NCBI GenBank assembly: GCA_903869265.1
Contig: CAIPYE010000011.1
Location: 1-63,519 of the forward strand
Direction: 5' to 3'
DNA length: 63,519 nucleotides
Source of the DNA: an uncultured delta proteobacterium
GTDB taxonomy: Bacteria > Desulfobacterota > Desulfobulbia > Desulfobulbales > Desulfurivibrionaceae
Below, piece by piece: positions 1 to 21,839 of the stretch; position 1 is the first letter of the stretch, and every line of letters begins with the position of its first letter. The position numbers were made by a program, and so were the translations under genes. The notes beneath the pieces were generated by a model, which was given only the letters and a program-made list of their open reading frames with translations, made no database searches and was not told the origin of the DNA.

Positions 1-88
1 CCGTTCCCATTCCGCACACGGAAGTTAAGCCTCTCAGCGCCGATGGTACTGCCAGGGAAGCTTGGTGGGAGAGTAGGTCGCCGCCGAT
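1..88 (+). rRNA. rrf: 5S ribosomal RNA, 3' part (5' end outside the window)
   Basis: The first ~88 bases match the middle and 3' portion of bacterial 5S rRNA: the segments GGAAGTTAAGC, GCGCCGATGGTACTG and GGGAGAGTAGG occur in the conserved order and spacing. About 30 bases of the 5' end lie before the window. A terminator follows at once, so this is probably the end of an rRNA operon. The exact 3' end (about 85-88) is estimated from the family. Confidence 0.93.
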
Positions 89-102
89 TCATTTTTTGTA
101 GC

Positions 103-17847: not shown

Positions 17848-18684
17848 ATGTCTCGTCAGGTTGATCCTGCCGCGCTCATGGAGTTCGTGCTCAAGCGGCG
17901 CAAGGCCACGGGCGGTTATGGCGCTACGCCGCGGCTGCCCGCCACCATTCAAGATACCTTTCAGGCAGTGGCCATCGGTCTTGTCTTGGGTCAAGACCAG
18001 CCCACCCTTCAATCAGAGTCTGCGCTGGGCGAATATCTCGCCCGGATGCTGGCCGTACCCTGGTTGGGGATCGACACCACTTTTCGTCTGCTGATTACCT
18101 GTCGCATCTGCGGGCTTGCCATGGATGGTGCGCGGGTGCGCTCCCATCTCGCCGCCTGTTTGGCCAGGGACGCTTCCCTTGCCGCCACCTATTATGTGAG
18201 TCGAATAGCCAGGGAGATTCTTGGGGAGGAGCCGGATTCTTTTGGCCCCGGACGGTCTTTGATGCTGCCTGCCCCCTGCGCGGTGGGGGATGTGGCCCGA
18301 TATCTGTTCGTGAAAAAGATGGCTGGCCAGCCGGTGGCGGGTGCGGGGGAACTGGTTGCTTGGCTTCAGCGCTCGCAGAACGGCGATGGCGGGTTCGGCT
18401 TTTTTCCGGGAACCACATCGTTCATCGAGAACTGCCATGCCGGGCTTGCGGCCTTGAGTCTTTTGGGCGCAAGGCCCATTGAGTTGGACAGCGCCAGGGC
18501 GTTCATCGTCAGCTGCCAGACGAGAAGAGGCGGCTTTGGCCGGAGTCCGAGGGCCGCTCCCTTTCTTGACGCATCTTGGCATGGTGTCGCCAGTCTTTGT
18601 CTGCTTGAGGAGATGGAGCAGCGGTCTGCGGGGGTCTTGCCGGAGATTTCAAGCCAGCGGAGTCGCCTGATTTTTTCCGTTTAA
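17848..18684 (+). CDS. Prenyltransferase/squalene-oxidase repeat protein
   Basis: 278 residues from ATG 17848 (GGGGAGAA upstream). Three repeats of the alpha/alpha-toroid type are visible: GGYGATPRLPATIQDTF, GDGGFGFFPGTTSFIENCH and RRGGFGRSPRAAPFLDASWH, each followed by a helix such as AGLAALSLLG. The last contains a DxxWHGxxSL element at the place of the zinc-ligand His in protein prenyltransferase beta subunits. No DxDD motif of class II cyclases is seen, so terpene cyclisation is unlikely. Substrate unknown. It follows the DUF190 gene by 35 bases. Confidence 0.7.
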   Translation: MSRQVDPAALMEFVLKRRKATGGYGATPRLPATIQDTFQAVAIGLVLGQDQPTLQSESALGEYLARMLAVPWLGIDTTFRLLITCRICGLAMDGARVRSHLAACLARDASLAATYYVSRIAREILGEEPDSFGPGRSLMLPAPCAVGDVARYLFVKKMAGQPVAGAGELVAWLQRSQNGDGGFGFFPGTTSFIENCHAGLAALSLLGARPIELDSARAFIVSCQTRRGGFGRSPRAAPFLDASWHGVASLCLLEEMEQRSAGVLPEISSQRSRLIFSV

Positions 18685-18700: not shown

Positions 18701-19654
18701 CTAAAAAAGGAAATCCCGGATATACTTGCCTGCCGTGATCAGCAGGCACATCACCAGAATCCATTTGATGAATTTGGCAGGCACGAATTTTTGCAGCCGT
18801 GCCCCGCAATACATGCCAGCGAAGCCGCCGATCCCGAAGAGAAAGCCCAGAAACCAATCCGGGGCGATGACCATGCCGGGGTAGTGGGGGGCCAGAATCT
18901 GGTAAAAAATCACCCCGGCCACTGAGGTGACAAAGGTTCCCATCAATGAGGCTCCTGCCACGGTATAGATGGGCAGCCCGAAGAAACTGACCAAAAACGG
19001 GGCGATGATCGCCCCGCCGCCGATGCCATACACCCCCCCCACCATACCGACAACAAGACTTAAAGCCAGGAGGCCCATGGCGTTGACCGTGAAGGTTTCC
19101 CCGTAAAAATCGTAGACGATTCGGGTTGGGGTCCATTGCCGTACCGTGACGCAAGACAGGTGCTTGCAGGAGTCGGCTTCGATACCGGTTGTCTGGGGCT
19201 GCTTTTTGCCCTGTTGTTGAAACCGCTCCTCTGTCGTGGGCGTGTTCCCATTTTTTTTGGTAAAGGCCAAATCCTTGAGCAGCCTTCCGCCCATGTAGAG
19301 GAGAACCAGTCCGGCAAAGAGCTTGAAATTTTTTGGGTCGGGCAGGTATTTGATCCGGACGATGGCCCCGACCAGAACTCCAGGCAGGGTGCCGATAATC
19401 ACGACCCAGGTCAGGGGCCAGAGCATCCGCCCTTCCTTGAGATACCGGTACACTCCGCTGGGGATGGCCACGATATTGAACAACTGGTTGGTGGAGCTGA
19501 CCGCCGGACTGGTGAAGCCGAGCACGCTGACCTGAAAGGGCAGTAGCAGGAAAGCCCCGCTCACTCCGCCCATGGAGGTGAAAAAAGAGATCCCAAAGGC
19601 AACCAGCGGCGGCATCAGCGGGTTGACCTCGATATTGGCAACCGGGAAATACAT
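18701..19654 (-). CDS. TauE/SafE (DUF81) family permease
   Basis: 317 residues from ATG 19654, which has AGGA 7 bases upstream. About eight membrane helices arranged in two halves (FGISFFTSMGGVSGAFLLLP and VVGMVGGVYGIGGGAIIAP). A Cys-containing hydrophilic loop lies in the middle (ADSCKHLSCVTV). The family exports or imports small sulfur compounds and organic anions such as sulfite or sulfoacetate. It begins 8 bases after the end of the TGA-containing CopZ-like gene, so the two are almost certainly co-transcribed. Convergent with the prenyltransferase-repeat gene. Confidence 0.88.
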   Translation of the reverse strand: MYFPVANIEVNPLMPPLVAFGISFFTSMGGVSGAFLLLPFQVSVLGFTSPAVSSTNQLFNIVAIPSGVYRYLKEGRMLWPLTWVVIIGTLPGVLVGAIVRIKYLPDPKNFKLFAGLVLLYMGGRLLKDLAFTKKNGNTPTTEERFQQQGKKQPQTTGIEADSCKHLSCVTVRQWTPTRIVYDFYGETFTVNAMGLLALSLVVGMVGGVYGIGGGAIIAPFLVSFFGLPIYTVAGASLMGTFVTSVAGVIFYQILAPHYPGMVIAPDWFLGFLFGIGGFAGMYCGARLQKFVPAKFIKWILVMCLLITAGKYIRDFLF

Positions 19655-19662
19655 CAGCGGTC

Positions 19663-19878
19663 CTATTTTTCGGAAATGCTTTTCAATGTGGCGTCCACCA
19701 CCTGGCGGACCTCGGCCAGGCATCAGCGGCCTGCTGGGTTTTTCTCCGTGCATTGGCACTGGCCGTCTTTTTTCGCGGAGACAATGCGTTCCATGATCAG
19801 CGAGCGGCCATGCAGTAAGACATCCTGGCGCAAATCATCTTCGGTGTGGCCAAAACAGTAACAGATCAGGCGTGACAT
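19663..19878 (-). CDS. Candidate selenoprotein: small CopZ/BFD-type [2Fe-2S] protein with in-frame TGA
   Basis: Read from ATG 19878 (GGAGG upstream), the frame gives MSRLICYCFGHTEDD... with CYC (6,8), CQC (41,43) and NPAGR, then TGA at 19725-19723, then CLAEVRQVVDATLKSISEK and TAG at 19665-19663. The family motif as I know it, from CopZ N-terminal and BFD-like domains, is NPxGxCCLxDV, so the TGA falls exactly on the first Cys of the CC pair. A hairpin with the features of a bacterial SECIS follows the TGA. Read this way the protein has 71 residues with Sec at 52, and the TauE gene follows after 8 bases. If TGA is a stop, the product is 51 residues and lacks two expected cluster ligands. Role inferred: redox or Fe-S partner of the permease. 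Confidence 0.75.
19689..19725 (-). promoter_or_regulatory. SECIS-like stem-loop downstream of TGA
   Basis: On the minus strand, after TGA (19725-19723) and 12 bases, GTCCGCC (19710-19704) pairs fully with GGTGGAC (19699-19693), one pair being G-U, around the loop AGGT. A lower stem TGGC/GCCA closes it with a 5' bulge. The loop begins 20 bases after TGA and contains GG, fitting the bacterial SECIS model (apical loop with G, 16-37 bases from UGA). Confidence 0.7.
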
Positions 19879-20099
19879 GAAATCCCTCCGATGGGATGTG
19901 TACAGGCAATGGCGACAGGTATCGGTCAACCTGGCAGGAAGGTTTTCTCTCTATACCCCATGGCAGATGATTTTGTCCAGGTCGGGATGCATAGTCTAGG
20001 CGCGTTCGGCACGCCATATCATATGCCGGTTGCCGCCCTTGGAGCCCAGTGCCCGGGATGTTCCTCGTCTGCAATTATTTTATTTGTCGGCGGATAACG

Positions 20100-21647
20100 T
20101 TATGAAACGCGGTGGATGGTGAGCTGCACGCTCCCATGATTGTTTCCGTACAGGCCCCAGGCATCGTTGGCAAAACAGTAGAGGTATCCTGGCGCGGCAA
20201 CAGTCAGCGGGGTTGATTCGTGGGCCGCCAGTTCGACATATTGGTGTGGAACCGGGCTGCCATCGTTTTCCACCACCTGCTTCGACCCGGCGTCGTTGGT
20301 GATGGCGCCGACCAGGGTGAACCACTTGAGACTCTCAACGCGTTTGCTGCCAGGCAGATCCATGGATTCATTTTTTGTTAGTTTTTTGAGAGGTTTTTCA
20401 AGCTTGCCAAAGAGGGCGGCGGCGCCCCGAATGAGATCGCCAGTGGTTGCTTCTTTGTTTTCAGTGCCCCGCCAGTCACAGGTGTCCTTTAAGTCCTGCC
20501 ACTGCCCTGTGGCGGAGAAGGTGAAGGAGTGGTCTTGGGGGAGGTAGACGCTGGAGTAGTTCCAGTGGGTGTCGGCGAAAACATCAACCGTATGGGATTC
20601 CCCCTTCGCGAGTATCTTGGTGGGGTGATAGGGTGGGTGGGTGATCGGCGAAACAAGCTGGCGGGTGATGGCACTGCTATGAAAGCGGGCATGATTTTCC
20701 GGAATCATTGCCTCGATGTTCCGCGGTCGGGAACGGAGTTTGGCAAAAGCGCCCTTGTAGGAATTGTGCATGGGGCCGAGCGGATTTGCTTTGATGGTAT
20801 CCTGAATGCCGTCACGAAATACAAGTCCGGCTTTGGCGCTTTCTTCCATCATCCATAGCAGAGCACCGTTGGAGAGGTCGCAGTCCGCATAGCCGCCGCC
20901 CACGTCGGAATGTACTCCTGGAAACCAAAGCTCAATGGCATTCGGATGCTGGGCGGCATTTTGCCAGCGGGTGACGCAGAAGCAGGAACGGAGCTCGTCG
21001 AGCGCCATGGCGTGGCGGGCCATGGCGACGTTTGTTTCGATTTCGGTGTTGTGGAACTCCCATTTGGCTTTGTTGTCGAAGAAATTGAGAAATTCAAGAT
21101 CGTCCGGCACTCCGAGGGCGCCAACGGTATCCCAGACGCCGATGAAACGGATGGGCGTGGGCTGGCCCTGGTGGAAGAACAGCCAGTGGGGTTCGGCCCA
21201 GTCCGTTAGTTTGGCGTTTTTGTTGCGGTAGCCTTTTTCGTAGGCACGGTGGACCCGGAGCCACGATTCTTCGGGCGAGAGATCCCGCAGATCGAGAAGG
21301 CCTTGGCCGAGAAAGCCGCCGAGGCTGCGGGCGGTGAAAGCCCCACGGCTGAAGCCGAAAAGGCAGATGTGGTCGCCTTCTTCATAATTACTGCCGAGCC
21401 AGTGGTAGGCGCTACAGATATGCCGACTGATGCCCGCGCCTACCGCCCCGCCAAGAATGGCGTTGAGCACCCCGCCTTCCCCGCCGACCCCAGGATGATA
21501 ATACTTGCGTTGCTCGATTGCACTGTGGGAGTCATGCTCCGCCAGAGCGTTGTAAATCTTGAAGACGTTGGTGGGGGCAGGAACCCCATTATCTTCCTTG
21601 GCCGGATTGTTCCATGTGCCATCGCAGCAGACAATGAGACGTTTCAT
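20100..21647 (-). CDS. DUF2235 alpha/beta-hydrolase (Tle1-like lipase family)
   Basis: 515 residues from ATG 21647 with GGGAGG 7 bases upstream. It opens with KRLIVCCDGTWNNP and YHPGVGGEGG, and contains the nucleophile elbow CLFGFSRGAFTARSL, all typical of DUF2235. Members include type VI secreted phospholipases, but no VgrG, Hcp or immunity gene is seen here, and there is no signal peptide. After the catalytic domain a C-terminal part of about 170 residues (from about 340) is not one I recognise. Likely an esterase or lipase; cellular role unknown. Confidence 0.82.
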   Translation of the reverse strand: MKRLIVCCDGTWNNPAKEDNGVPAPTNVFKIYNALAEHDSHSAIEQRKYYHPGVGGEGGVLNAILGGAVGAGISRHICSAYHWLGSNYEEGDHICLFGFSRGAFTARSLGGFLGQGLLDLRDLSPEESWLRVHRAYEKGYRNKNAKLTDWAEPHWLFFHQGQPTPIRFIGVWDTVGALGVPDDLEFLNFFDNKAKWEFHNTEIETNVAMARHAMALDELRSCFCVTRWQNAAQHPNAIELWFPGVHSDVGGGYADCDLSNGALLWMMEESAKAGLVFRDGIQDTIKANPLGPMHNSYKGAFAKLRSRPRNIEAMIPENHARFHSSAITRQLVSPITHPPYHPTKILAKGESHTVDVFADTHWNYSSVYLPQDHSFTFSATGQWQDLKDTCDWRGTENKEATTGDLIRGAAALFGKLEKPLKKLTKNESMDLPGSKRVESLKWFTLVGAITNDAGSKQVVENDGSPVPHQYVELAAHESTPLTVAAPGYLYCFANDAWGLYGNNHGSVQLTIHRVS

Positions 21648-21839
21648 GGGCAATCCTCCCTTTATATGATTGGCAGAAAACTCCTTGTTTGTTAGGTAGT
21701 GGAATCCATCGCGATTGTCAATAGTCTCGAAGGATTTAGGCCAACGTCTTGAAATATTATAAAGTTCATTTTCTGAGGCTTGGTCTCCTTGGATCTTGCC
21801 GATATTATGGCTTTATTTGGTCTCTCGCTGGGAGTTTTT

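Follow-up and report, generated by a model that had tools for sequence, protein, structure and literature searches.

A Probable Single-Domain CopZ/Bfd-Type Selenoprotein Encoded Beside a TauE-Family Permease

Insertion of selenocysteine (Sec) at an in-frame UGA codon is strongly supported for a small gene carried by a stretch of 63,519 nucleotides (the window) from an uncultured delta proteobacterium. The case is built on the Sec machinery, the recurrence of the codon in relatives and the SECIS element, and it bears out an earlier note on this DNA, in which the TGA was proposed to replace the first Cys of a CC pair with Sec. Taken as a whole, the explanation that best accounts for the comparisons is a selenoprotein gene with Sec insertion at residue 52 of a single Bfd-type domain, and we consider this reading very probably correct; the role of the protein is graded separately below. 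The gene is a further member of a selenoprotein kind that has already been catalogued. What is added here is the single-domain layout, the conservation of the SECIS element, and the ars/TauE context.

The gene and the decoding of its UGA codon

The product can be written as MSRLICYCFGHTEDDLRQDVLLHGRSLIMERIVSAKKDGQCQCTEKNPAGR-UGA-CLAEVRQVVDATLKSISEK-TAG (Table 1). Its N-terminus is MSRLICYCFG, followed later by GQCQC and then by NPAGR immediately before the TGA. The earlier note had described a frame split by an in-frame TGA, with these flanking motifs, a TAG, and a gap of 8 bases before the TauE start codon, and all of this was confirmed on the sequence. The two genes presumably share a transcript. 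In another family (locus L191), a relative of the prenyltransferase-toroid protein that faces the TauE gene in the window lies 7 bp 5' of the Sec gene.

Table 1. Features of the window, with positions counted from its first letter
Feature	Positions	Strand	Basis or remark
CDS of 71-aa Sec-containing CopZ/BFD-type protein	19663..19878	(-)	ATG at 19878, UGA as Sec52, TAG at 19665-19663
UGA codon at residue 52, strongly supported as encoding selenocysteine in the first position of the CC pair	19723..19725	(-)	sequence and comparison with relatives
Ribosome-binding site GGAGGG	19884..19889	(-)	read from the sequence, 5' of the ATG
TauE/SafE-family permease, 317 aa	18701..19654	(-)	ATG at 19654, 8 nt downstream of the Sec gene TAG
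SECIS apical stem-loop: 7-bp stem GUCCGCC/GGUGGAC, loop AGGU, 19 nt after the UGA	19693..19710	(-)	folding and comparison
SECIS with 4-bp lower stem (UGGC/GCCA) and 4-nt bulge	19689..19718	(-)	folding and comparison
Upstream gene matching the Tle1-like phospholipase effector catalytic domain (PF09994)	20100..21653	(-)	
Prenyltransferase-toroid protein (PF00432), facing TauE	17881..18684	(+)	
5S rRNA gene, 3' part, at the window edge	1..89	(+)	

The genome to which the window belongs (2.8 Mb in 17 contigs, 99% complete) encodes both SelA and SelB and contains a tRNA-Sec gene that scores 72.5 bits, above the Rfam cut-off. Its selD gene (L048, G000:C14:1869-2792) carries one in-frame TGA of its own and is likely a second Sec gene. 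The earlier note had named a lack of Sec machinery as evidence against its reading; selA, selB, selC and selD are all present in this genome.

The TGA codon recurs widely among relatives. Across 58 genomes, comprising the window's own genome and related ones, 32 matches were found in 31 genomes, and a TGA lies inside 31 of the 32, the window gene included. A sample of the class (243 genomes) yielded 131 matches in 119 genomes, of which five partial matches fall short of the codon and were set aside; of the 126 that span it, 123 carry TGA, and the three that lack it (G211, G046, G084) are all weak. A sample of the phylum (395 genomes) had matches in 67 genomes, with TGA in 61 of 67 matches and six matches without it. 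The class and phylum counts were made by hand from match listings, the three samples overlap in genomes, and for matches whose loci were not fetched the count records only a TGA inside the match, its position not having been read. Among the 90 distinct TGA members that were read, the TGA is at exactly this codon in every one. Of the 148 distinct rows, 90 have TGA and 58 have a Cys codon at position 52, with Cys built in for the 57 Cys rows that came from a pattern demanding CC. This is the alternation that the earlier note had proposed to look for in the family, and homologues that end at NPxGR, which were sought as evidence to the contrary, were not found.

The composition of the Cys set deserves care. 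The contig scan demanded NPxGRCCL and hence returned Cys relatives; it biases that set, builds in the Cys conservation at this motif, and says nothing about the frequency of TGA in named genomes. The 58 distinct Cys rows derive from 56 of the 63 pattern-found loci (L055 contributing twice) plus L229, and the loci giving no Cys row are L062, L086, L091, L105, L106, L111 and L112. Fifteen of the 63 Cys loci lie outside sets A2 and A3 (L070, L078, L089, L091, L098, L100, L102, L104-L107, L109, L111-L113). Of the 30 loci L009-L038, 29 make up set A1; L009 is the window gene, and the incomplete L026 is omitted. In a tree of the 90 TGA and 58 Cys rows (67 columns) the Sec rows form one group with support 99/96, which points to a single origin relative to the pattern-chosen Cys rows and L229. 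Among the phylum's matches without TGA, only G611 (L229) is in the tree; G046, G084, G211, G294, G326, G416 and G577 are among those outside it.

Among the 119 class genomes in which the family was matched, SelB was found in 104; the other 15, a list completed by elimination, had no SelB match at E 1e-60. Nine of these 15 have tRNA-Sec, 13 have SelA, and 14 have one or the other, leaving only draft G190 without a match to either. Because most genomes of the class have SelB in any case (208 of 243), its co-occurrence with the family is a matter of consistency and not of proof. The three family-positive drafts of genus g55 without a SelB match at this threshold differ in their remaining machinery, with tRNA-Sec and SelA in G193, SelA only in G191, and neither in G190. 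A second tRNA-Sec match in one genome (G207:C82:16686-16784) scores 58.7 bits, above the Rfam cut-off.

A hairpin with the sequence GUCCGCC-AGGU-GGUGGAC begins 12 nt after the UGA and, as the earlier note had stated, presents an AGGU loop above a lower stem and bulge. The bSECIS model given in PMC13188914 calls for a loop of 3-9 nt whose first two positions include a G, a stem of 4-16 bp, a distance of 16-37 nt from the UGA, and a minimum free energy of -7.5 or lower. The window element falls within these limits (AGGU loop, 7 bp, 19 nt, -16.4 kcal/mol), as do the elements of 79 of the 90 TGA members versus 8 of the 58 Cys members; the energy limit alone is reached by 88 of 90 and 32 of 58, respectively. 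At least six of the seven stem pairs can form in 87 of the 90 TGA members versus 1 of the 58 Cys relatives at the same positions, and all seven in 57 of 90 versus none of 58. Pairs 2 to 6 are kept in 89 or 90 of the 90 members; pair 1 is broken in 12 members and kept in 78, and pair 7 is broken in 22 and kept in 68. Double-sided changes are found at the third pair (C-G to U-A in 12 members), the sixth (C-G to G-C in two), the seventh (C-G to A-U in three) and the first (G-C to C-G in one), and at the fifth pair only one side varies.

The Cys relatives do not serve perfectly as a control for the stem, since their protein sequences diverge as well; shuffling of codons within columns is the fairer control. 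Across 2000 such shuffles of 85 distinct 36-mers, the mean number of pairs was 6.41 (sd 0.02, highest 6.52) versus 6.58 observed, and full stems numbered at most 51 versus 52 observed. This excess is small, though it lies outside all 2000 shuffles. Random synonymous recoding gave all seven pairs in 0.8% of cases. Folding energy from a single sequence was rejected as proof of a SECIS element, given that 17 of 200 dinucleotide shuffles of the window element fold as well (z = -1.46). That energy is unexceptional, and the argument for Sec rests on comparison and not on the single sequence.

Other readings of the codon can be weighed against these observations. A stop is the standard meaning of TGA and would leave a truncated domain of 51 residues with an untranslated remainder, a reading to which draft G190, with no detected SelB, tRNA-Sec or SelA, lends some support. 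However, C53 lies 3' of the TGA and is kept in 90 of 90 TGA members, the SECIS element is conserved, the window's own genome has the complete machinery, and the C-terminal helix belongs to the predicted fold. The plain stop was rejected as very unlikely. If instead the UGA were read as some other residue, such as Trp or Cys, by suppression or through an altered code, the open frame through the TGA would look identical. Yet TGA is also the terminating stop of this same gene in 44 of the 90 members, and therefore UGA is not recoded wholesale; with a SECIS element and the Sec machinery present as well, general recoding was rejected as extremely improbable. As for a sequencing error or a pseudogene, no supporting point was found, and its probability is close to negligible: the TGA recurs in other genomes (123 of the 126 matches noted above), which refutes an error, and the Sec rows form one well supported tree group.

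Predicted fold and candidate cluster ligands

The NCBIfam model that best matches the protein is NF047645 CopZ_Nterm_CC (E 2.9e-14, 53.5 bits versus a cut-off of 100, model positions 86-137 of 138), followed by NF045877 CopZ_Nterm_CU (E 1.6e-8, 34.7 bits versus a cut-off of 190, positions 98-161 of 161). In both cases only the C-terminal part of the model is matched and the score lies below the curated cut-off. The CopZ_Nterm models match all 29 members of A1, the window member falling below the cut-off. The Pfam score for Fer2_BFD (PF04324) is likewise below its gathering cut-off (14.3 versus 26 bits), but the relation to this family is supported nonetheless because the predicted fold matches Bfd. 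Frames of the Sec form are short, with 65-95 codons from the first start in 72 of 90 members, and those of the Cys relatives run to 120-265 aa in 48 of 56 whole frames. By eye, many Cys relatives start with CxxC-rich sequence and a few extend into MerT-like or heavy-metal-type stretches.

An AlphaFold model of the Sec protein has a mean pLDDT of 95.5 and a pTM of 0.82. Aligned with VIA-align, it matches Pseudomonas Bfd at Z 6.3 (53 residues, rmsd 2.4 A) and the N-terminal domain of Archaeoglobus fulgidus CopZ (CopZ-NT, 2HU9) at Z 3.8 (58 residues, 2.3 A), values to be read with the aligner's warning that a Z under 8 may reflect a common arrangement. An unrelated ribosomal chain reaches Z 3.2, so close to the value for 2HU9 that the relation to CopZ-NT rests mainly on sequence. 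In a profile search of the PDB, 2HU9 was the sole relative (E 2.4e-4 with A1, 1e-7 with A2), and no PDB entry reached E 0.001 in a Foldseek search with the predicted structure. Overall, the fold is predicted to be Bfd/CopZ-like, which would be fitting for a [2Fe-2S] domain.

Conservation of the Cys residues suggests how such a cluster might be held. Every one of the 90 Sec members keeps C8, C43, residue 52 and C53. C6 and C41 are each kept in 89, the exceptions being a gap at C6 and a Ser at C41; among the Cys members, C41 is kept in 51 of 58. The Bfd alignment spans residues 3-69 on Bfd residues 1-57, with offsets of 2 and 12 at its ends, and by these offsets C6, C8 and C53 fall on Bfd C4, C6 and C41, which we take to be cluster ligands. 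Judging from alignment end points, with no coordinates read, C53 and not U52 would occupy the position of Bfd's fourth ligand, and U52 would sit beside a ligand. The most likely ligands of the expected [2Fe-2S] cluster are C6, C8, C43 and C53, in which case C41 and U52, both conserved, could serve as additional soft ligands or form a redox pair.

Genomic context and possible role

The earlier note had paired the gene with a TauE permease, a claim that holds in part. TauE lies directly 3' of the Sec gene in 13 of 14 loci of the window's own genus (L009-L022) and in 6 of 7 loci read from genus g25, the seventh (L129) showing a distant partial match only. The pair was not found in the remaining loci checked, with flanks of up to 1.5 kb for Sec loci and up to 10 kb for Cys loci. 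In six further loci a TauE-family gene is nearby, within ars-type clusters. The Sec-TauE pair may have moved as a unit, because the tree group of 21 rows that unites the 14 own-genus and 7 g25 members joins two families with support 100/100.

Genes of arsenic-type systems recur around the Sec form. Sixty loci were fetched with flanks of up to 5 kb, one of them (L229) Cys-type, which together with the window makes 60 Sec loci. Clustering of the neighbors in all 61 loci placed an ArsP-like permease in 17, ArsR in 10, thioredoxin in 9, ArsC in 8, an Acr3-like SBF protein in 8, and a TauE-family protein in 6, where each name denotes a cluster of neighbor proteins with Pfam run on one example. The chance level for ArsP was estimated by eye at about 0.4 of 60 loci, on the basis of some 2 copies per 3.5 Mb. 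In 19 of the 60 Sec loci, representing 12 of 32 families, one or more of the ArsP, ArsC, ArsR and Acr3-like genes lies within about 5 kb; the other 41 have no clustered ars gene within that distance, some of their flanks being cut by contig ends, and in the window no ars gene was found beside the Sec gene. In seven loci, five of them from family f89, an ArsP-like gene on the same strand ends no more than 45 bp upstream of the Sec gene, and L182 and L192 share the order arsR-arsC-ArsP-Sec-TauE. A putative redox protein of the C_GCAxxG_C_C type (PF09719) is encoded about 78 bp upstream of the Sec gene in L190.

Searches with tblastn of 59 fetched Sec loci versus 63 Cys loci (552 versus 861 kb of DNA) found ArsP in 13 versus 0, ArsC in 13 versus 0, ArsR in 17 versus 11, Acr3 in 9 versus 2, and MerT-like sequence in 3 versus 24. 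The MerT-like stretches adjoin or are fused to the Cys relatives (among loci L051-L113), hinting that these relatives are mercury chaperones. ArsP of Campylobacter exports trivalent organoarsenicals, according to PMC6205960.

From these observations a mechanism can be proposed. SelB and Sec-tRNA, guided by the hairpin just 3' of the UGA, would insert Sec at residue 52, a step inferred from the conserved sequence, the machinery, and the SECIS element. The resulting single Bfd-type domain with its expected [2Fe-2S] cluster would then work with the membrane permease encoded beside it, which is TauE here and ArsP in some relatives. In this setting the protein could be a small chaperone or a reductant or redox partner for soft metalloids or chalcogens, an assignment that we offer tentatively. 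A more specific version, in which Sec52 and Cys41 beside the cluster pass trivalent arsenicals or comparable soft species on to the ArsP and TauE permeases, seems rather unlikely in full detail; it would make the family a one-domain [2Fe-2S] selenoprotein chaperone, widespread in the phylum and parallel to the Cys relatives beside mercury-transporter-like genes.

The main rival to a soft-metalloid role is electron transfer, by which the same selenoprotein would act as a Bfd-like one-electron carrier or as a thiol/selenol reductase serving a pathway of sulfur or peroxide, and the ars neighborhood would reflect the hitch-hiking of a stress gene. This is a possibility to be taken seriously, if a doubtful one. 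Bfd is the best structural match, and the 41 Sec loci with other neighbors include, by eye, flavin-reductase-like and MsrA-like genes, along with the C_GCAxxG_C_C gene. On the other hand, the commonest redox partner among the 25 largest neighbor clusters is thioredoxin, which mostly accompanies ars genes; ArsP-like permeases recur in 17 loci; and Cys relatives lie near MerT-like transport genes in 24 of 63.

Relation to known systems

The earlier note did not recall a Sec-Cys pair being described for this small family, but a related selenoprotein is already on record. The selenoprotein tables of two reviews (PMC13188914 Table 1; PMC9312934) list a "(2Fe-2S)-binding protein (CopZ family) form 1," represented by WP_245779778.1, and a related (seleno)protein model exists in NCBIfam. 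As tabulated in PMC13188914, the motif of form 1 is GxUC and that of form 2 is CU. NPAGRUC in the window protein conforms to the form 1 motif and lies in a CopZ-like Fer2_BFD-like domain. The table entry agrees with it in domain type (cd10141 CopZ-like Fer2_BFD-like), in the single Sec, and in G-x-U-C, and these features of the entry are the extent of the comparison. The main text of PMC2398784, the source cited for the review entry, does not contain the words copper, BFD, 2Fe-2S or Fe-S. In the open-licence papers searched, no report of an ars/TauE context for the Sec form was found.

With these additions a bare catalogue entry becomes a system that can be tested. The Sec family occurs across the phylum sample and forms one tree group, with a conserved SECIS element, a structure predicted with confidence, and a gene order with arsenical-type permeases that recurs, and it raises a chemical question about the role of a selenolate beside a [2Fe-2S] cluster. 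There is also a practical lesson for annotation, as gene finders that stop at TGA would truncate this gene at 51 codons, and family matches occur in nearly half of the class genomes (119 of 243).

Several known proteins frame the comparison. Bfd acts on bacterioferritin and is not known to have a CC or UC pair with an NPxG insert. The predicted fold of the Sec protein matches that of Bfd (PDB 4E6K, 6E6R). A search of a plasmid collection gave nine records, all under 60% identity, five of which are annotated as copper chaperone Copz family protein. The putative iron-sulfur metallochaperone of NF047645 is the best NCBIfam relative, yet the window protein scores under its cut-off. The Csac_0668 family (NF045877, review form 2) has a related domain with a Sec in a Cys pair, but its listed motif, CU, places Sec second in the pair, whereas Sec is first in the window protein. 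In the N-terminal domain of A. fulgidus CopZ, C75, C77, C109, C118 and C119 align with C6, C8, C43, U52 and C53; this protein differs in being longer, in its description as holding Zn and a [2Fe-2S] cluster, and in having Cys instead of Sec at 118. As a domain expected to hold a [2Fe-2S] cluster, the Sec protein is comparable to the part of the CopZ N-terminal region that binds the cluster, and it lacks the additional N-terminal segment present in most of the Cys relatives read.
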